This document shows, piece by piece, positions 23,040-36,389 of a DNA stretch of 64,000 nt. The translations under genes were made by a program, and so were the position numbers. Under the pieces are notes generated by a model that made no database searches, was not told where the DNA came from, and worked only from the letters and a program-made list of their open reading frames with translations. The DNA comes from Parafrankia sp. EUN1f (GTDB taxonomy: Bacteria > Actinomycetota > Actinomycetes > Frankiales > Frankiaceae): the NCBI RefSeq assembly GCF_000177675.1, contig NZ_ADGX01000019.1, positions 1-64,000 on the forward strand, read 5' to 3'. Position 1 is the stretch's first letter; each line of letters starts with the position of its first letter.

Positions 23040-23348
23040 ACCTCCACGGTAGGTCACGACGTACCCAGTCTTTGTGGTGGTGGCCCTTCGCCCCGGTACC
23101 GGCGGAGATCTGCTGCCCGCGTCCCAGGACCGACCCGCACCCATGACTCCAGGCCACCCACCGCCAGCCCACCCGCATCAAGTGATAACAAAACCACGGC
23201 CGGAGCGCTAGGAGACGAACAAAGAGCCGACACGCCGACCGCTCATCATCGGAGCGAGCGGATCGGCCACGGTAGCTTCCTCGAGCGTCGTTTAATTGAA
23301 CGGATTAGGCGAGTCAACGTTTCGTACGCTATTACTGCGAGGTTTACC
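23040..23348. other. 309-base divergent promoter region
   Basis: The gap separates the DUF2277/ftsH operon and the first WxL-like gene. It is less GC-rich than its surroundings, with AT-rich patches at 23175-23225 and 23288-23340. It must hold both promoters, but I cannot fix their boxes. GCGAGG at ~23336 is the ribosome site of the WxL-like gene. Confidence 0.4.
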
Positions 23349-23876
23349 GTGCGCAAGTTTGTACCACTTCTGGCGACTACGGTGGCGGTCTTCGCCGTAG
23401 TGTCTGCGGCACCGGCCCTGGCGGATACAACGGGAAATACCTCCGCAACGGTCACGCTGAGCACAACCGGGGTTCTTTCTATCACGGTGCCGGCGGCGAT
23501 CGCCCTCAGTGGATCCGTGGCCGACACCACGCTCAACGGACAACTTGGCAACGTGCAGGTCACCGACGAGCGCAGTGCCGACCCCGCCGCATGGAACGCC
23601 TCGGTGAGCGCGACGCCGTTCACGAGCGGAACACACGCTCTCGGAAGCGCCGCTTACGACCCGGGGGTCGTCACAACAACAGGAATCCCGGCCAGCCAGA
23701 TCACCACGAACATCGTGACGCTCTCCACGTCTCCCCAGGTCACCGTCACCCTCGATGGGGGAACCTCCTTCTCCGGAAACAACACGGCCGTGTGGGACCC
23801 CAGCATCAGTGTCCCCATTCCTGCCGGTTCCGTGACTGGAACGTACACGTCGACGATCACCCATTCGGTCGTCTAA
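23349..23876 (+). CDS. WxL-like secreted surface protein, locus 1
   Basis: 175-residue exported protein. A signal peptide (RKFVPLLATTVAVFAVVSAA, cut near ALA-DT) is followed by a Thr/Ser/Val-rich beta protein. Landmarks are GNVQVTDERSA, AAWNASVSATPF, TAVWDPSISVPIP and a C-terminus ending GTYTSTITHSVV. The same pattern recurs in the proteins at 34961-35509 and 35832-36389. It resembles Firmicutes WxL surface proteins, but the distal W-x-L is T-H-S-V here. GTG 23349 has GAGG 6 bases upstream. A WxIP-like gene follows after 4 bases, so the two are surely cotranscribed. Confidence 0.75.
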   Translation: MRKFVPLLATTVAVFAVVSAAPALADTTGNTSATVTLSTTGVLSITVPAAIALSGSVADTTLNGQLGNVQVTDERSADPAAWNASVSATPFTSGTHALGSAAYDPGVVTTTGIPASQITTNIVTLSTSPQVTVTLDGGTSFSGNNTAVWDPSISVPIPAGSVTGTYTSTITHSVV

Positions 23877-23880
23877 CTGG

Positions 23881-24927
23881 ATGACCTTCACTGTGCGACG
23901 TGTCCTCATAGCACTCGCCGTGGTCGTGGTCGGGACTGTCCTCCCGACCACGACCACGTTTACCGGGCCCGCGGGTGCGGCGACATCAGCGGCGACCTCC
24001 ACACCGGAGAGCATCGGCATACGGTTGGTCGACGTTCCGGCAGACGCGGTGGACGATCCGCGCGCGCGGATCTATATCGTCGATCATCTCAATCCAGGGA
24101 CGGTCATCCAGCGACGGATCAGCGTCAGCAACCTGAGCGACACCGAGCGACGTCTTGCGGTCTACGCGGGCGCGGCCTCGGTCGAGCGGGGCGGCTTCAA
24201 TGTCTCCGCCGGTCGCACTCCCAACGAGCTCACCACCTGGATCACGATCGATCGGCCGTTGCTGACCCTGCAGCCCCACGAGGAAGCGACCGTCACGGCA
24301 AAAATCGCGGTCCCCCGCGATGCATCTCCCGGGGAACACTACGCTGCGATCTGGGCGGAAACAGGTACAACCCACGCAACGCGCAACAAAAACGTGGTCG
24401 AGGTCAGTCGGGTTGGTGTTCGAACTTACCTGTCGGTGGGCCCCGGGGGTCCTCCGCCGGCGGACTTCGCCATCGCCGGCCTCTCCTCGAGCAGGTTGCC
24501 GGACGGACGGCCGGTCGCCACCGCACAAATCCGCAACACCGGCGGACGGGCTTTGGACATGACCGGGGAACTCGGTCTCACCCGTGGTCCGGGCGGTCTG
24601 AGTGCCGGCCCGTTCCCTGCCCGGCTGGGCAAGACCCTCGCACCCGGTCAGTCCGAACCGGTAATGGTAACCCTGGACAAACAACTACCCGCTGGTCCGT
24701 GGACAGCCCTGATCCGTCTGAAGAGCGGGCTGACCGAGCGGACCGCCCGGGCCGTCATCACTTTCCCGCAACACAGCGGAGAAAGCCGGAGCGGGAAGAT
24801 GCTGCCCCTCTCGAACAACGGTTATCTCACGGCCGGTGTCATCGGCATACTGCTGCTCGCAGCCCTGTCGGTGCTCGTGCTCCGCCGTCGTCGACGCCGC
24901 TCCTCCCGGGAACGGGAATCGGCCTGA
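23881..24927 (+). CDS. WxL-interacting-protein-like (DUF916-type) surface protein, locus 1
   Basis: 348 residues: signal peptide (~1-34), a WxIP/DUF916-like beta domain (~40-165, with DPRARIYIVDHLNPG, NELTTW and DASPGEHYAAIWAET), a second beta domain (~175-290, NTGGRALDMTGEL, AGPFPARLGKTLAPG, PAGPWTALIRLKSGL), then a membrane helix (~315-335) and a basic tail. In Firmicutes DUF916 proteins bind peptidoglycan and partner WxL proteins. It is a clear paralogue of the protein at 33814-34851. It starts 4 bases after the WxL-like gene and is followed by a strong terminator. Confidence 0.8.
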   Translation: MTFTVRRVLIALAVVVVGTVLPTTTTFTGPAGAATSAATSTPESIGIRLVDVPADAVDDPRARIYIVDHLNPGTVIQRRISVSNLSDTERRLAVYAGAASVERGGFNVSAGRTPNELTTWITIDRPLLTLQPHEEATVTAKIAVPRDASPGEHYAAIWAETGTTHATRNKNVVEVSRVGVRTYLSVGPGGPPPADFAIAGLSSSRLPDGRPVATAQIRNTGGRALDMTGELGLTRGPGGLSAGPFPARLGKTLAPGQSEPVMVTLDKQLPAGPWTALIRLKSGLTERTARAVITFPQHSGESRSGKMLPLSNNGYLTAGVIGILLLAALSVLVLRRRRRRSSRERESA

Positions 24928-27049: not shown

Positions 27050-28624
27050 TCAGCCGGAGTGGGCGGCATCGAAGGCCTCGACGATCTCCCGCGGGATGCG
27101 GCCGCGGTCACCGACCTCGAAACCGTGCTGCCTGGCCCATCCTCGGATCTGGCCGGGATCCCGGCCGCCGGTCCCGGCGCCGCCCGGGCCGGCGGAGGAG
27201 AGCGCCTCCGACCCACGCGGCCCGGTGGGGGCAGGCAGGAGCCGGTCCGCCGGGCCGGCCGGGAGCGGGATCCCGGCCATGGCCCGGACGTCATCCGGCT
27301 GCCGGGCCGCGGCGATCGCGAACGCGGCGGGCAGGTACGTGATCGTGATCAGGTCCTCATCGCCCCGTCCGCCCTGGTCGTCCCGTTCCTTCTGCCGGGG
27401 CGGGTCGCTCCGGAGCTGGCCGACGACGTCCCGGGCCAGGTCGGCGAGGTGCTCGTGGTGGGTCAGCAGGATGATCTGCCAGCTGGGCGCGAACTCGGCC
27501 AGCACCCGCAGGGCGGCCCTCGTCCGGTCGTCGTCGAAGGTCATGAGGACGTCGTCGAGCACGACCGGCAGCGTGGGCTCGCCGCGATCGGCCCGCTCCC
27601 GCTGGAGCTGGTTGATCGCCGCCAGCCGCAGGGCGAGGAACACCTGGTCGCAGGTGCCCTCCGACAGGTCGTCCGGCCCGAGCTCCTGCTCGTCCGAGCG
27701 GATGACCTTCAACGTCCGGGCGGAGTCGCCGCGGTCGACGGCGCGCAGCGCCACGTACCGGCCCTCGGTGAGCCGTTCGAGCAGCTGCCCCGCGGCGGCG
27801 AGCAGGGGCGATGCATGGCGACGTTCGTAAGCTGCCAGCTCGCTGCGCAGCGTCTCGTGCTGCAGGCGTGCGATGACGTAGCGCTCCGCGGTCTCCGCGA
27901 CCAGCGCCAGCGACTCCTGGGCCCGCGCGTGCAGCTCGCCGGCGCTCGCACCGCTCTCCAGGTCGAGCAGGCGCCGTTCGCCGGTGCCGACCGCCGTCCA
28001 GGCGTCCCGCTGGGCGGCGGCGTACCGGTCATGCTCGTCCCGGGCGCGGGTGACTTCGGCCGCGAGCTCCGCGTCCGTCCGGCCGGTCAGGTCGCTCACG
28101 ACGGCCTCGAGGTCGTCGCCGGGAACGGTCGCACGCAGGAGGGCCTCGGCGGCCGTCAGCTCCGCCGTCACATGGGCGAGGTCCCGCTGGCGGGCCGCCG
28201 CGTCCGCGAGGGTCTGCCCGGGTGCGAGGGTGACCTGGGCGCCGAGCTCGTCGAGACGTCCCGCGGCGCTGTCCCGGAGCCGGGCCGCCGCCTCGACGCG
28301 GGTGGTGAGCCCCTCGATCGCCTGGTCGATCTCCGCGGCGCGGGCCCGGTTCTGCGTGGCGGCCCGGTGCAGGCCGCTGAGCTGGTCGACCAGGTCGGCC
28401 AGCGCGCCGATCTCGGCGTCCAGGTCGTCGGACCCCGCCGTCGCCGTCGCTGTTGTCGGGCCGGGGCGGCCTGGGTCCGGCTCGGCGGAGGTCCGGCGCA
28501 GGCCGTGCCGTGCCGCCAGCCCCGTCACCTCGGCGGCGAAGTCGCCGAACACGCCTCCGGCGGCGTCGGCATCCCGCCCGGCCTGCAGCGCAAGCTCGTG
28601 CAGTGCGGCGGCCTCGGTGAGCAC
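27050..28624 (-). CDS. SbcC/YhaN-like ATPase, C-terminal part, with Lsr2-like domain
   Basis: This 524-residue frame continues the protein begun by the overlapping frame 28525-31053; the two are split by a frameshift at 28643-28651. It holds the second half of a coiled-coil/hinge region, then the ATPase C-lobe (signature region near LSEGTCDQVFLALRLA, Walker B LPVVLDDVLMTFDD, switch His in LLTHHEHL). A Pro/Gly linker follows, then a ~38-residue tail GQIRGWARQHGFEVGDRGRI continuing PREIVEAF, which matches the DNA-binding domain of Lsr2 including its RGR hook. The start at 28624 is only the first GTG after the break; independent expression is unlikely. Confidence 0.75.
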   Translation of the reverse strand: MLTEAAALHELALQAGRDADAAGGVFGDFAAEVTGLAARHGLRRTSAEPDPGRPGPTTATATAGSDDLDAEIGALADLVDQLSGLHRAATQNRARAAEIDQAIEGLTTRVEAAARLRDSAAGRLDELGAQVTLAPGQTLADAAARQRDLAHVTAELTAAEALLRATVPGDDLEAVVSDLTGRTDAELAAEVTRARDEHDRYAAAQRDAWTAVGTGERRLLDLESGASAGELHARAQESLALVAETAERYVIARLQHETLRSELAAYERRHASPLLAAAGQLLERLTEGRYVALRAVDRGDSARTLKVIRSDEQELGPDDLSEGTCDQVFLALRLAAINQLQRERADRGEPTLPVVLDDVLMTFDDDRTRAALRVLAEFAPSWQIILLTHHEHLADLARDVVGQLRSDPPRQKERDDQGGRGDEDLITITYLPAAFAIAAARQPDDVRAMAGIPLPAGPADRLLPAPTGPRGSEALSSAGPGGAGTGGRDPGQIRGWARQHGFEVGDRGRIPREIVEAFDAAHSG

Positions 28625-31053
28625 AGCCCGCCGCTCGGCCCACCCCGGGGGTCGGTGACGTCGGCCAGGACGGCCCGGCGGACGAGGGCCTGCCAGTCGT
28701 CCTCGGCGCCGCGCAGCTCCTCACGGCGTTTCGCCAGGTCACGCTCCGCCTCGTCGACGACACGCCCGGAGTGGAGCGCGGTGGCGCGCTGCTCCCGGGC
28801 CCTGTCGTCGTCGTCGAGCACGCCGCGTGCGGCGCCGAGCAGGCTGTCGAGGTCGGCTTCCGTGGTCGGGACACCGACCCGGGTCAGCGCTTCGGTCAGC
28901 GCGCTGCGCTGCGCCCGCACCTGCGGGTCCAGCCCGTTGACGCGTGCCTGTGCGGCGAGCAGCTCGCCATGCGCGCGGTGCGCGTCGTCGGCGGCCTGCA
29001 GGACGTCCTCCACCTCGTCCCGGGCGGGAGCGGCGAGGCCGGCGCCCTGCCACAGCGCAGTCCAGGCGGCGGCGGCCTGATCGGCGGCGTCGGCCGCCGC
29101 GGCGGTGGCGGACAGCGCGGCCGTCACGCGCTTGCGGGCGGTCGTGGCCTCCCGGCGGAGCTGGCCGCGCCGGGCCGCGAGGTCGGCATGGCGGATGAGC
29201 TGGTCGGCGATCTCGTCGGCCTGGGCGATGCCGGCGGCGAGCACCGGCAGGAGCTCACCGGCCCGCTGTCGGGTCAGACCCTGCCCTGGTGCGTCTGGTG
29301 CGTCTGGTGCGTCTGGTGCGTCTGGTGCGTCTGGTGCGTCCGGTGCGCCGGGCGTGGCGGTGGGGTCCGGTGTGGCGGTGCCGGTCGCGGCGAGCAGCAG
29401 GTTCCACAGCCGCGCGCGGGTCGCGCGGGCCTGTTCCAGCGTCGCGGAGTCCGGCAGGTCCTGCTCGTCCGCTTCGGCGAGCCGTCCCTGGGCGAGCTCG
29501 TCGTCGCGGGTGGCCCCGACCAGGTCCTCCTCGCGCCGGGCCAGCGTGACCTGCGCCGCGTCCAGCGCCTCGCGTGCCGACCGCACCTCGGCGCGACCAG
29601 GCATGGTGGGCGGTGGGCCGTCCAGATCACGGGCACCGGCGCGGTGCAGCGCCGCCCGCCGGTCGCGGACCGCGTGGGCCGCCGCGTCGACGGCGTCCCG
29701 GGCCCGCGCGGTCGCCGACCCTTCGGCGCCGACGACGGCGACCACGGCCTTGAGATGGCTGATCGCCGCCGGATCGGCCCCGGGGAAGAGCTCGGTGGCG
29801 GCGTCGTGACGCTGGCGCGCGGCGGACAGTGTCTCCTCGGCCCGGCCCAGCTCGTCGCCGAGGTCAGCGATCGTGGCGGCCAGCGCGTCCAGCTGGGCAG
29901 CGAGATCGCGGGGGACGTGCAGATGGTCGAGAAGATCGGCGGTGTCACGCTCGTCGTTCGGGCCGACGAGGCCCAGCAGCAGCGCGCGCGCCAGGCCGGA
30001 CTGGTGACGTGACTCGGCGGCCAGCTCACGGGCGCGGCGGCCGTCGCCCAGCCGCGCGACGCTGGCCCGGTCCAGCCGGATGATGGTCGCGCTGTCCGCG
30101 AGCACCGCCTCGTCGACGGTCAGCGTCTCCCGCGCGGCGCGGCGCTCGGTCAGCTCAGTGGTCAGCCGCTCCAGCTCCGTCTCGGCGGCCACGGTCTCCC
30201 CGACGCTGGCGTCGAAGATCGCCGCCTGCTCCGCGGTGAGCACGGTGCCGGCTCCCAGCAGGGCGATCCGGCGCTCCCGGAGCACCACGAGATCCCGGAC
30301 GAACGCCGCGGCCCGGCTCCGCTGCTCCATCCGATCGGCCGCCGCGGCGGCCGATCGGACCGCCGCCGCCATCGACGCGGCCTCGCCGCGGCGTAGCGCC
30401 AGCTCGTGGCGGGCCGCCTCGACGTGGGCCGCGCGGGTCATGGACGCCGCCGCCTGCTCGGCCTGGCGCTGGTAGTCCGTCAGCGCGATGCGCAGCTTCG
30501 ACTGCTTGCTGTTGCGATGCTGCTTGTAGAGGGAGTCCATCTCGGCCGCGAGCGCGTCGAGCAGGCTGCGCACCGCCCGGCCGCTACGCGCGGTGAAGAC
30601 GAGCTCGGCGAGGTCACCGCGGCCCGCGAAGACGTTGGCGCCGCCTTCTCGCAGTTCGGTGTGGGAGAGCCCGAAGGCTCGGCGCCAGCGGTCGCGCTCC
30701 GCGGCGCCGCCGGAACCCCAGGGCGGTGCGAACGGGGCGCCGTCCGCGGCCGTCTGCAAACCGGTGTTGCGACGCCTGATCTCCACCTGCGTCGTCGGGG
30801 GGATCTCGTCCGGCGCCGCGGGGATCTCACCCCCGGGCAGTTCGAGGTCGGCGCTCAGGCTCAGCGCGCCCAGGCCGAAATGGAAGCTCTGCCGGGTGCC
30901 GCGGAAGGTCCACAGCAGGTCGGAGAGCGCATCCAGCGTGGTGGACTTGCCGGCCTCGTTGGCGCCGACGACCAGGGTCAGCCCGGGGCCGAACTCGACT
31001 CGGCGGGCTTCGAAGGCGCCGTAGCGCTCAAGCCCCAACGCCCGGATGCGCAT
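28525..31053 (-). CDS. SbcC/YhaN-like ATPase, N-terminal part
   Basis: N-terminal part of an SMC/Rad50-type ATPase that pairs with the SbcD-like nuclease upstream. MRIRALGLERYGAFEARRVE and Walker A VVGANEAGKSTTLDALSDLL open the AAA domain, followed by long Ala/Arg/Glu-rich heptad-like coiled coils. Homologous sequence stops at about residue 800 (ADVTDP); the last ~40 residues are out-of-frame read-through. The intact protein with the part at 27050-28624 would have ~1,330 residues. An Asp-Ala-Pro repeat (six or seven DAP units, 29288-29350) interrupts a loop. The start codon shares one base with the stop of the SbcD-like gene. Confidence 0.8.
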   Translation of the reverse strand: MRIRALGLERYGAFEARRVEFGPGLTLVVGANEAGKSTTLDALSDLLWTFRGTRQSFHFGLGALSLSADLELPGGEIPAAPDEIPPTTQVEIRRRNTGLQTAADGAPFAPPWGSGGAAERDRWRRAFGLSHTELREGGANVFAGRGDLAELVFTARSGRAVRSLLDALAAEMDSLYKQHRNSKQSKLRIALTDYQRQAEQAAASMTRAAHVEAARHELALRRGEAASMAAAVRSAAAAADRMEQRSRAAAFVRDLVVLRERRIALLGAGTVLTAEQAAIFDASVGETVAAETELERLTTELTERRAARETLTVDEAVLADSATIIRLDRASVARLGDGRRARELAAESRHQSGLARALLLGLVGPNDERDTADLLDHLHVPRDLAAQLDALAATIADLGDELGRAEETLSAARQRHDAATELFPGADPAAISHLKAVVAVVGAEGSATARARDAVDAAAHAVRDRRAALHRAGARDLDGPPPTMPGRAEVRSAREALDAAQVTLARREEDLVGATRDDELAQGRLAEADEQDLPDSATLEQARATRARLWNLLLAATGTATPDPTATPGAPDAPDAPDAPDAPDAPDAPGQGLTRQRAGELLPVLAAGIAQADEIADQLIRHADLAARRGQLRREATTARKRVTAALSATAAAADAADQAAAAWTALWQGAGLAAPARDEVEDVLQAADDAHRAHGELLAAQARVNGLDPQVRAQRSALTEALTRVGVPTTEADLDSLLGAARGVLDDDDRAREQRATALHSGRVVDEAERDLAKRREELRGAEDDWQALVRRAVLADVTDPRGGPSGGLCSPRPPHCTSLRCRPGGMPTPPEACSATSPPR
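29288..29350. repeat. 9-base in-frame repeat in SbcC-like gene
   Basis: GGTGCGTCT is repeated five times perfectly, with a sixth and seventh unit differing at one or two positions. On the minus strand it codes an Asp-Ala-Pro run inside the coiled-coil region of the ATPase. Confidence 0.85.
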
Positions 31054-33813: not shown

Positions 33814-34851
33814 CTACTCCTGCGCGGGCCCGTCGCCGGCCCGGCGGGCGTGGCGGCCGTGGCGGGTGTGGCGGAGGTGGGCCGCACGGCCCGCGAGCAG
33901 GGCGAGCGCCGCGACGAGCGCTCCGGTGCCCGTGACGAGGGCGATCGCGGCCGGGCCGTCCAGGGGAAGGAACGGAAGGAGGCGCTCACGGACCGGACCG
34001 GTCTGGGTATCGGGCCGGTCGGGGAAGCGGATGCGGGCGGCGAGAGTGTTCTCCACCAGGCCGCTGCGCAGGGTGATCGTCGCCTTCCACGGGCCGGCAG
34101 GCACCAGTGGATCCAGGAAGACCGTCACCGGGTCGCTTTCGCCCGGGGCGACAGTCGTGCCGAGCCTCGCGTCGAACGGGCCGGCCTGCAGGCCGCCAGG
34201 CCCGTCGGCCAGGCGCAGCTCGCCGGTGATGTCCAGGGCCCGTCCGCCCGTGTTGTGGACAGTGGTGATCATGGCGGGCCGGCCGTCATCCATCCGGCGC
34301 GCCACGATGTCCGACATGGTGAAGGCGGAGGGCGCGGGCCCGCCCGGCCCGATGTCGAGATAGACGCGGATACCCACCCTGTTCACCAGCTGGACGCCGG
34401 TGCCGCCGTTCGCGGAGCTGGCGGTCTCGGCCCAGATGACGCCGTAGTGCTCACCGGGTGAGGCGTCGGTCGGCACGGTGACGCGCACCGTGACAGTGTC
34501 GGTGCTGTGCGCCGCGACCTCGAGGACGCTCCTGTCGACGCTGGCCCATGTGGTCAGCTCGTTGACGGCGTGGCTTTCACCGAAGGAGAAGTGGCCCTTC
34601 CCGACCGTCGCGGCGCCCGGGTAGACGACTATCCGGCGCGGTTCGTCGCCGTTGTTCGTGACCTCGACGCGCCGGTCGATGGTGGCGCCCGGCTCCAGGT
34701 GATCGATCAGGTACTGCCGGGCGCGCGGGTCGAGGCGCAGGCTGTCGGTGACCTCCATGAGGCGTACACCGATGGTGCCGTCGTCGCTCGCCCGCGCCCC
34801 GGGAGAAGCGCCGATGGTGATCGTGGCCAGCAGCAGACTGGCCACGATCAC
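33814..34851 (-). CDS. WxL-interacting-protein-like (DUF916-type) surface protein, locus 2
   Basis: 345-residue paralogue of the protein at 23881-24927, sharing DPRAR, NELTTW, DASPGEHY, IWAET, NTGGRALDITGEL, AGPFDARLGTTVAPG and PAGPWKATI in the same order. It has a signal peptide (~1-21, IVASLLLATITIG), two beta domains, a membrane helix (~295-320) and a His/Arg-rich basic tail (RHTRHGRHARRAG). GTG 34851 is the only reasonable start. It lies 109 bases downstream of the WxL-like gene on the same strand. Confidence 0.8.
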   Translation of the reverse strand: MIVASLLLATITIGASPGARASDDGTIGVRLMEVTDSLRLDPRARQYLIDHLEPGATIDRRVEVTNNGDEPRRIVVYPGAATVGKGHFSFGESHAVNELTTWASVDRSVLEVAAHSTDTVTVRVTVPTDASPGEHYGVIWAETASSANGGTGVQLVNRVGIRVYLDIGPGGPAPSAFTMSDIVARRMDDGRPAMITTVHNTGGRALDITGELRLADGPGGLQAGPFDARLGTTVAPGESDPVTVFLDPLVPAGPWKATITLRSGLVENTLAARIRFPDRPDTQTGPVRERLLPFLPLDGPAAIALVTGTGALVAALALLAGRAAHLRHTRHGRHARRAGDGPAQE

Positions 34852-34960
34852 CGTGATGGTCCGCGTGACAGTGCGGCAGGGCAGTGCCCGGCCAGATCGC
34901 TGTCCCGTCTTGCCACCCCCTCGCCTGCGTGGTCGCCTGCGGTCGCGGCCGACCAGACCG

Positions 34961-35509
34961 CTAGGCGACCGAGTGCGTCACCGTCGCGGTGTAGGTGCCT
35001 GCCACCTTCGATGCCGACGGAATCGTGATGGTTAGCGTCGGGTCCCAGGTGGCGGTGTTCAGGCCGGTGCCAGCTGTGGCTGTCACCGCTGTCTGCGCGG
35101 TGCCAGACAGCGCGGCCACATTTGATCCCGTGGTTGACACATTACTGGCTGTGATGGTTCCGGGTGTGTAAGCGATGGCGGACGCCGGAATCGTGACGCC
35201 CGCCGCCGTGCCGCTGCCCGCGAACGCCGAGGACGTGACGCTCGCGATCCAGGTCGCGGACGCAAGGCCACGCGAGTCGGTGACGGTCACGTTGCCCAGG
35301 GGGCCGGAAACCGTCGGAGCGGTGACTGCGAACGAGCCGAGGTTCACCGGGGACGGACCAGGAACGGTGATGTCGAGGGTCCCGCCGGTGAGGGTGAACG
35401 TGACGGTGGTCGTGCCGGACGTGGCGGCGGTCGCGGGTGGGGTGAGGGCCAGCCCGGTGGCCAGGATCGCCACGGCTCCGGCGGATACCAAGAGTGACGA
35501 TCTGCGCAA
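34961..35509 (-). CDS. WxL-like secreted surface protein, locus 2
   Basis: 182 residues: signal peptide (RRSSLLVSAGAVAILATGLA, cut near ATA-AT), then a beta-rich domain with GGTLDITVP, GNVTVTDSRGLASATWIASV, TATWDPTLTITIP and a C-terminal KVAGTYTATVTHSVA. These match the proteins at 23349 and 35832. The TTG start at 35509 is set by a textbook AAGGAGGT site 5 bases upstream; a start at 35516 in another frame is not supported. It precedes its WxIP-like partner. Confidence 0.78.
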   Translation of the reverse strand: MRRSSLLVSAGAVAILATGLALTPPATAATSGTTTVTFTLTGGTLDITVPGPSPVNLGSFAVTAPTVSGPLGNVTVTDSRGLASATWIASVTSSAFAGSGTAAGVTIPASAIAYTPGTITASNVSTTGSNVAALSGTAQTAVTATAGTGLNTATWDPTLTITIPSASKVAGTYTATVTHSVA

Positions 35510-35831
35510 GCCGCACCTCCTTCCCGGCGGTAGGCCGCCGTGGTTCGTTGCGCTGGCTGACTGCCAGGGCAGGGATGTTTACCGATCGTGAGCGTCACTA
35601 CCGTAGTCATGCCGCGTGGCGATAGCTACTCTTCGTAACCATGGGTGGCGTGGATCAAAGGCATTCCCGGGATGAGCGGTAGGGCAGTGGCCAGGCTGGT
35701 CCAGCCGGGCCGGGCCCCGCCTCGATCGGCTGTGCGCGACGTCCCGTTCGGATCGGGTTCGCTCCGGAACCGGACCTTCAGTTGCGGCGGGCGTCCTTGC
35801 CCGCGATCAGTCCCCGCGGTACCAATGCGCG
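35510..35831. other. 322-base divergent region between two WxL-like genes
   Basis: Shared upstream region of the two divergently transcribed WxL-like genes. It carries the AAGGAGGT site of the leftward gene at ~35515-35522 and a moderately AT-rich patch at 35590-35650. I cannot assign promoter boxes with confidence. Confidence 0.4.
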
Positions 35832-36389
35832 GTGCGCAACCGTCTGCCGGGCCGCGGCTTCCGCTTGGCCGGGTTCCGTCGAATGCACCCTTCGCGGCGG
35901 CTCACGCTCGCTCTGCTGACTCTGGTTTCGTCCGGAACGGGGATCGCGCCTGCCAACGCGGCGTTGGACATCACCGTGCCGACCGCGAAGGACCTCGGCT
36001 CCCGGCAGGTCGGCAGCGGCACGCTCACGGCGGCGCTCGGCACCGTCACGGTCACGAGCACGAACCTGATCGGTACCTGGACGGCGTCGGTGTCGTCGAC
36101 GAACTGCACCACCGGTGCCGGAGGGAGCCAGCAGACGGTGCTGAACAGCCAGCTGTCCTACTGGTCCGGGCCCGTCACCGCCACCACGGGCCAGCTCTCG
36201 CTCACCACCCCGGGCCAGGCCACGGCAGCCAACGCGGTCACGCTGAGCACCGCCCGCACCGCCTTCTCCGCGGTCACGGTCAACATCCTGCAAAGCACCG
36301 TGTCGTGGAATCCCACGCTCATCGTGAACGTCCCGTCCAGCGTGGTCGCCGGCACGTACACCTGCACGGTGACCCACTCGGTGGCCTGA
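35832..36389 (+). CDS. WxL-like secreted surface protein, orphan third copy
   Basis: 185-residue exported protein. A basic N-terminus (RNRLPGRGFRLAGFRR) leads into a signal helix (LTLALLTLVSSGTGIAPANA). The mature part starts LDITVPTAKDLGS and contains GTVTVTSTNLIGTWTASVSS, TVSWNPTLIVNVP and the C-terminal VVAGTYTCTVTHSVA. It lacks the D-x-R of the first motif and carries two Cys (in SSTNCTT and YTCTV) absent from its paralogues. GTG 35832 or ATG 35883 could start it; neither has a clear ribosome site. No WxIP-like gene follows, so it may use the partner of the divergent operon. Confidence 0.68.
   Translation: MRNRLPGRGFRLAGFRRMHPSRRLTLALLTLVSSGTGIAPANAALDITVPTAKDLGSRQVGSGTLTAALGTVTVTSTNLIGTWTASVSSTNCTTGAGGSQQTVLNSQLSYWSGPVTATTGQLSLTTPGQATAANAVTLSTARTAFSAVTVNILQSTVSWNPTLIVNVPSSVVAGTYTCTVTHSVA

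Follow-up and report, generated by a model that had tools for sequence, protein, structure and literature searches.

The WxL/WxLIP (Csc) clusters of Firmicutes, described from Lactiplantibacillus, Enterococcus and Listeria, represent the closest known system to the gene pair reported here (PMC1534035, PMC9772566, PMC10599100; PDB 9i1y and 9i25). A hairpin strand of WxLIP has been predicted to complete the WxL sandwich (PMC10599100), and the title of PDB entry 9i25 gives a WxLIP bound to a long WxL protein. Firmicutes hold over 91% of the WxL sequences according to one WxL paper, and the main WxL papers contain no mention of actinobacteria. So far, the clusters have been regarded as peculiar to Lactobacillales and Bacillales, with ties to gut hosts and virulence. 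DUF916 genes have been noted beside Ang-2 genes in Actinomycetota in a 2025 paper (PMC12537917). A functional account of a W-IP pair, i.e. a WxL-related protein (W) encoded next to a WxLIP-like protein (IP), in actinobacteria was not found in the openly available literature, in which few subscription papers and bioRxiv preprints were covered. New here is a motif-degenerate pair of the WxL/WxLIP type occurring across high-GC actinobacteria.

The pair was analysed in Parafrankia sp. EUN1f, in a window (the whole stretch of DNA under analysis) of 64 kb. Locus 1 consists of one W gene, W1, and IP1 (Table 1). W1 starts with GTG at 23349, with GAGG at 23339-23342, 6 bases ahead. IP1 starts with ATG at 23881, 4 bases downstream of W1, and its stop ends at 24927. 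The preliminary description had read W1 as a small exported beta-rich protein with a W-[ND]-P-[TS] and a C-terminal motif, followed after 4 bases by a gene for a secreted, membrane-anchored protein. Both readings hold. W1 carries a Sec-type signal, WDPS and GTYTSTITHSVV, and in IP1 an N-terminal signal peptide and a long ectodomain precede a hydrophobic C-terminal helix and RRRRRRSSRERESA, with RRRRRR after the helix. The GC3 of locus 1 (23349-24927) is 0.75, compared to about 0.90-0.92 in the FtsH-like, IP2 and W3 genes of the window, which suggests a recent horizontal acquisition. Apart from these loci, APD (Ala-Pro-Asp) is repeated about six times in a row at about 29200-29300, in a gene for an SbcC-like coiled-coil ATPase (28525-31053, minus strand).

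Table 1. Features of the two W-IP loci, with positions in the window and the basis of each assignment.
Feature	Position (strand)	Basis or remark
W1, small exported WxL-related protein, 175 aa	23349..23876 (+), stop ending 23876	ORF and homologues
W1 signal peptide, Sec-type	23349..23423 (+)	cleavage predicted after ...PALA (between ALA and DTT), read by eye from the sequence
W1 proximal motif W-N-A-S-V	23592..23606 (+)	opposite the first of the two W-x-L in Firmicutes WxL
W1 W-D-P-S motif, characteristic of the actinobacterial subfamily	23793..23804 (+)	W124 and P126 invariant
W1 C-terminal GTYTSTITHSVV, last strand	23838..23873 (+)	aligned to distal W-x-L
IP1, WxLIP-like, 348 aa, two Ig-like domains and membrane helix	23881..24927 (+)	ORF, model, profile
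IP1 DDPRARIYIVDHLNPG	24052..24099 (+)	aligned to N-terminal DK-x3-Y motif region conserved in Firmicutes WxLIP
IP1 strand 141-152 (VSRVGVRTYLSV), candidate donor strand	24403..24438 (+)	after lower-confidence loop; putative donor role
IP1 membrane helix and cytoplasmic poly-Arg tail, without LPxTG	24826..24924 (+)	model, tail counts, LPxTG scan
IP2, IP1 paralogue (49% identity)	33814..34851 (-)	above PF06030 cut-off
W2, WxL-related, directly upstream of IP2	34961..35509 (-)	PF13731 E 2.8e-4, sub-threshold
W3, third WxL-related protein, divergent from W2	35832..36389 (+)	without N-terminal strand; Cys pair

W124 and P126 of mature W1 are part of the W-[ND]-P-[TS] motif and invariant among 22 homologues. 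Between the conserved Tyr and the C-terminus, the W subfamily keeps a fixed distance; exactly 9 residues follow the Tyr in 45 of 65 W proteins. A search of all six frames of the window detected the C-terminal motif plus stop exactly three times, once per W gene, and not once in 50 codon-shuffled windows. W1 shares with WxL proteins both the export and the C-terminal position of the domain: the signal was read from the sequence, and the C-terminus is placed just past the last strand. AlphaFold2, supplied with alignments of related loci, yielded an all-beta fold with a mean pLDDT of 90.9, in which the N-terminal stretch is unpaired. The nearest solved structures listed include the donor-strand-complemented pilins CsuA/B, CfaE/CfaB, FimG and EcpA (Z 6-8); no solved WxL chain was among the matches listed. 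A PDB search with the single W1 sequence resulted in antibody light chains as sole matches, which were judged compositional.

The relation to WxL emerges at the level of the family. W1 had no Pfam match at E up to 10. W2 matches the WxL model PF13731 below threshold (E 2.8e-4, 21.4 bits versus a cut-off of 25), covering both motif positions, and a close W relative from another genome (L099) exceeds the cut-off with 27.5 bits. WxL matches over the PF13731 cut-off are present in 8 of 396 actinobacterial genomes. Profile-profile alignment with hhalign connected the W family to Firmicutes WxL end to end over 153 columns, with E 1.7e-6 (alignment A2) and 6.9e-10 (broader alignment A3). The W family aligned to Pfam-positive actinobacterial WxL with E 1.4e-12, and the latter to Firmicutes WxL with E 3.7e-27. 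A mismatched control, W against WxLIP, gave a probability of 0.03. Profile searches of the PDB with the W family, the Pfam-positive actinobacterial WxL or a single WxL sequence as query detected no WxL chain. In the proximal alignment, GW-R-L-D-V-SATPF of Firmicutes stands opposite AW-N-A-S-V-SATPF; in the distal one, Y-x3-LTWNL stands opposite Y-T-S-T-ITHSV. The motifs of the W family are thus degenerate compared to Firmicutes, with the first Trp kept and both Leu lost. The distal Trp is absent from all actinobacterial sequences aligned, and its position is occupied by His in most of the W subfamily and by Gln, Phe or Thr in others. W1 itself has no two strict W-x-L motifs; the aligned positions read W-N-A and H-S-V. 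Because both motifs are degenerate and the WxL Pfam model gives no match, W1 is, as judged from its sequence, a member of a sister family of WxL and not a canonical WxL protein.

IP1 is a distant match to its Pfam model, PF06030 (DUF916, WxLIP_PGBD), with E 0.002 and 18.6 bits, under the cut-off of 27.3. IP2 surpasses this cut-off with 27.5-30 bits, and 14 of 19 IP relatives match at E up to 1, the best with 3e-6. The HBD model (DUF3324, PF11797) yielded no match, neither for IP1 at E up to 10 nor for 19 members at E up to 1. The second IP domain nevertheless aligns with WxLIP by fold and by profile. The IP1 model, obtained in the same way as that of W1, has a mean pLDDT of 91.4 and comprises two Ig-like domains and a long C-terminal transmembrane helix at 279-313. 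Its best PDB match is 9i25_C, the E. faecium WxLIP bound to a long WxL (Foldseek E 4.5e-12). The superposition covers 239 residues of both domains (model range 8-263) at Z 15.6, 18% identity and rmsd 7.6; a differing domain angle probably accounts for the large rmsd of the model. A second E. faecium WxLIP chain, 9i1y_A, follows with Z 15.4. By sequence, the best PDB matches of an IP profile from 41 sequences were again 9i1y and 9i25 (E 3e-4). The IP family aligned to Firmicutes WxLIP, a set of five proteins from annotated plasmids, with hhalign probability 87.4 and E 3.7e-6 over 225 columns and both domains. The structure match and this alignment place the two-domain PGBD-HBD fold in IP1. At the aligned place of the WxLIP motif NQIDKxxxYFDLK, IP1 reads DDPRARIYIVDHL, in which Asp and Tyr are conserved and the other letters differ. 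A match of IP1 to LPXTG_anchor (TIGR01167) was rejected, as only the helix and the basic tail matched and no LPxTG is present. Four loci from the order of the strain (L026, L027, L028, L033) encode a separate family of IP-like proteins of 387-394 aa, with no W gene detected nearby.

Locus 2 (33814-36389) contains W2, W3 and IP2. The true start of IP2 may be a few codons further upstream, and W3 may start at about 35880. The two cysteines of W3, at positions 52 and 138 in the aligned stretch of 145 residues, could tie the last strand to the proximal region. Besides the two loci, no W or IP copies were found in the genome of this strain.

W and IP are neighbours well beyond the genus. A W gene directly upstream of an IP gene was identified in 33 distinct loci from many actinobacterial families. 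One relative belongs to Plantactinospora. Among the genomes of the host's order, 24 of 35 contain an IP match, and a W gene immediately precedes almost all full-length IP genes. Across the phylum (296 genomes), strong IP matches and W matches coincide by genome and adjoin. Both were present in 13 genomes, far beyond chance (Fisher p 8e-17; table of 13, 3, 4 and 276, tallied by hand). In a comparison of 20 neighbourhoods (up to 20 kb each), no genes besides W and IP were broadly shared, and about half of the neighbourhoods contained a second W, divergent or in tandem. The distance matrices of W and IP correlate with r 0.80, a value reached by none of 5000 permutations; the correlation reflects co-inheritance, which is also expected from shared descent and is no proof of contact. 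A plasmid-borne pair or IP homologues were observed on an Arthrobacter plasmid (L149) and on Streptomyces plasmids. The module may be mobile in actinobacteria, as suggested by these plasmid locations. In some large actinobacterial proteins, a CBM96 or M64 peptidase domain is followed by a C-terminus of the WxL type. Proteins from L115, L106 and L101 combine a WxL match with a domain of the CBM96, IgA peptidase M64 or HtaA type. A large W protein of 456 aa, whose N-terminal region is unassigned, is encoded beside a W-IP pair in L120 (478-1845, minus strand); a 415-aa stretch of it was scanned without a Pfam match.

The preliminary description had further proposed the gene pairing of the Firmicutes WxL/WxIP system, with the distal W-x-L appearing as H-S-V. 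In profile-profile comparison W aligns with Firmicutes WxL and IP with Firmicutes WxLIP, the alignment agrees with the H-S-V reading, and the two genes are neighbours in related as well as unrelated actinobacteria. Of the two outcomes named in advance as refuting, unrelated folds and a lack of co-occurrence, neither was obtained. Other points were borne out in part. The DUF916 resemblance is real, above the cut-off for IP2 and sub-threshold for IP1. In the WxL profile search W1 failed, but W2 came close and the family comparison was significant. The fold comparison succeeded for IP1, whose model best matches a solved WxLIP among the PDB chains; for the W1 model no solved WxL was among the matches listed, an absence that is given no weight. 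The WxL-like identity of W1 stands as profile-level homology in the sister family, not as a protein with the dual motif or a Pfam match. The pair had also been called the best candidate for an undescribed system. This holds for its function, of which no account was found in the openly available literature. Parts of the system are on record, however, as RefSeq gives close IP homologues a DUF916 name and PMC12537917 mentions DUF916 genes. A 51%-identical IP homologue on an Arthrobacter plasmid is annotated as 'DUF916 domain-containing protein', the upstream W as 'hypothetical protein'.

W1 and IP1 probably constitute a cell-surface pair of the WxL/WxLIP kind, in which membrane-anchored IP1 would capture W1 through an inserted strand and retain it at the wall. 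Both proteins would be exported by the Sec route. The C-terminal helix and the basic tail would keep IP1 in the cytoplasmic membrane of the bacterium itself, with the two Ig-like domains projecting into the wall. The first domain would then insert a strand into the incomplete beta-sandwich of W1. The candidate equivalent of the WxLIP hairpin strand is mature 141-152, where R143, G145, R147 and Y149 are invariant in 19 sequences; the loop ahead of it has a pLDDT of 74 in the block 131-140. Captured W1 would be held at the wall, with its WxL-type face contacting peptidoglycan, or be displayed as an adhesive or platform subunit. A physical W-IP complex, the strand insertion and the wall binding would be expected from the homologues, and binding of W1 to peptidoglycan likewise by analogy. 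A docking role fits, because relatives carry cargo (CBM96, M64 peptidase, HtaA) on the same kind of domain.

An unlikely alternative is a monoderm chaperone-subunit system, in which IP acts as a membrane-bound two-Ig chaperone and subunits of the W1 and W2 type polymerise by donor-strand exchange into a fibre; the strand-less W3-type or the large W proteins would, in the same unlikely scheme, provide the ends or tips. In structure, the PapD-type proteins YadV, SafB, Caf1M, CupB2 and FimC (Z 10-13, about 185-195 residues, both domains) rank behind WxLIP as the second tier of IP1 matches. Invariant arginines reside on the first and last strands of IP domain 1, R14 and R147, which may resemble R8 and K112 of PapD. 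The mature N-terminus of the partner W proteins is an alternating, strand-like stretch similar to T-x-V-T-x-T-L-T, which is missing from W3-type proteins, most of which have a Cys pair; and W proteins stop at a fixed length past the C-terminal strand. The similarity of W1 to donor-strand-complemented pilins (Z 6-8) also fits, but all its fold matches are under Z 8, a level common for unrelated beta-sandwiches, and may reflect a common arrangement only. A test for sequence homology of IP and W with PapD chaperones and pilins revealed none: hhalign against E. coli K-12 families resulted in probabilities of 1.3% for IP and chaperones and 0.2% for W and pilins, and Firmicutes WxLIP reached 6% against chaperones. 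Because these sequence tests were negative, the likeness is taken as an analogy of architecture. No usher or other assembly platform gene was conserved in the 20 neighbourhoods of up to 20 kb. An outer membrane is not expected in an actinobacterium of this kind. By the same analogy, and with as little probability, the actinobacterial form of WxL/WxLIP might be a membrane-tethered monoderm counterpart of chaperone-pilin complementation, with a PapD-like IP and large W proteins as tip adhesins.

Even less probable are two readings that deny either the pairing or the anchor. W1 and IP1 might be generic Ig-like surface proteins, with adjacency by coincidence or shared regulation and the WxL resemblance caused by common sequence features of beta-sandwiches. 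Single-sequence Pfam scores are weak, and beta-rich, Ser/Thr-rich proteins produce spurious matches, e.g. to antibody light chains. Significant profile-profile matches accompanied by negative controls, WxLIP as the best structural match and the pairing in 33 loci already largely refute this very improbable view. The least credible reading places the C-terminal helix of IP in a host cell membrane and lets the second domain bind a host protein. Host-membrane insertion has been proposed for Firmicutes WxLIP with the argument that the wall bars access to the bacterial membrane from outside (PMC10599100). However, the net charge of the 15 residues past the helix is +3 or more in 32 of 35 actinobacterial IPs (mean +4.8), and a basic tail also follows the helix in 4 of 5 Firmicutes WxLIPs aligned, the ones extending that far. 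Such a tail, as in a stop-transfer anchor, speaks against helix insertion into a host membrane and for a location of WxLIP in the membrane of the bacterium itself, contrary to the published proposal. A single animal-host role is unlikely, because holders of the pair include the hosts of Arthrobacter and Streptomyces plasmids. The anchored WxL/WxLIP-type pair thus remains the preferred explanation. A Pfam-invisible branch with the same pairing and with soil and plasmid-borne members suggests a general docking device of the wall surface, not a host-adhesion tool. The namesake tryptophans are replaceable, and many sequences are gained for mapping the W-IP interface.

Among known systems, chaperone-usher pairs (FimC-FimG, CsuC-CsuA/B, PapD) resemble the pair in the predicted folds, with two angled Ig-like domains beside an incomplete Ig-like subunit that stops at its last strand. 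The W-IP pair differs from them in lacking sequence similarity and an usher, in the membrane anchor of IP and in its monoderm hosts. Pfam-positive actinobacterial WxL proteins (e.g. L093-L096, L098, L110, L111) belong to the same phylum and mostly have an IP-like gene next door. They exceed the PF13731 cut-off and mostly end in a Firmicutes-like C-terminus (...SGP), yet also lack the distal Trp. In contrast to Firmicutes WxL, W1 has its own W-[ND]-P-[TS] motif, a shorter C-terminus and W-N-A/H-S-V at the motif positions, and is invisible to the Pfam model. Locus 1 differs from Csc clusters by its single W and its high-GC actinobacterial host. An LPxTG site of the CscD type, with a hydrophobic segment behind it and a stop no more than 60 residues away, was absent from all six frames of the window; the LPxTG protein CscD is often present in Csc clusters but not a required member. 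As in Firmicutes, the genes for a small exported WxL-type protein and for a secreted protein of two Ig-like domains and a C-terminal helix lie side by side, and both proteins are homologous to their counterparts by profile. Loci with two W and one IP, i.e. locus 2 and about half of the relatives, correspond to the core of two WxL and one WxLIP in Firmicutes clusters. The large, C-terminally WxL-bearing proteins of Firmicutes are paralleled in some relatives by the actinobacterial CBM96, M64 peptidase and HtaA proteins.
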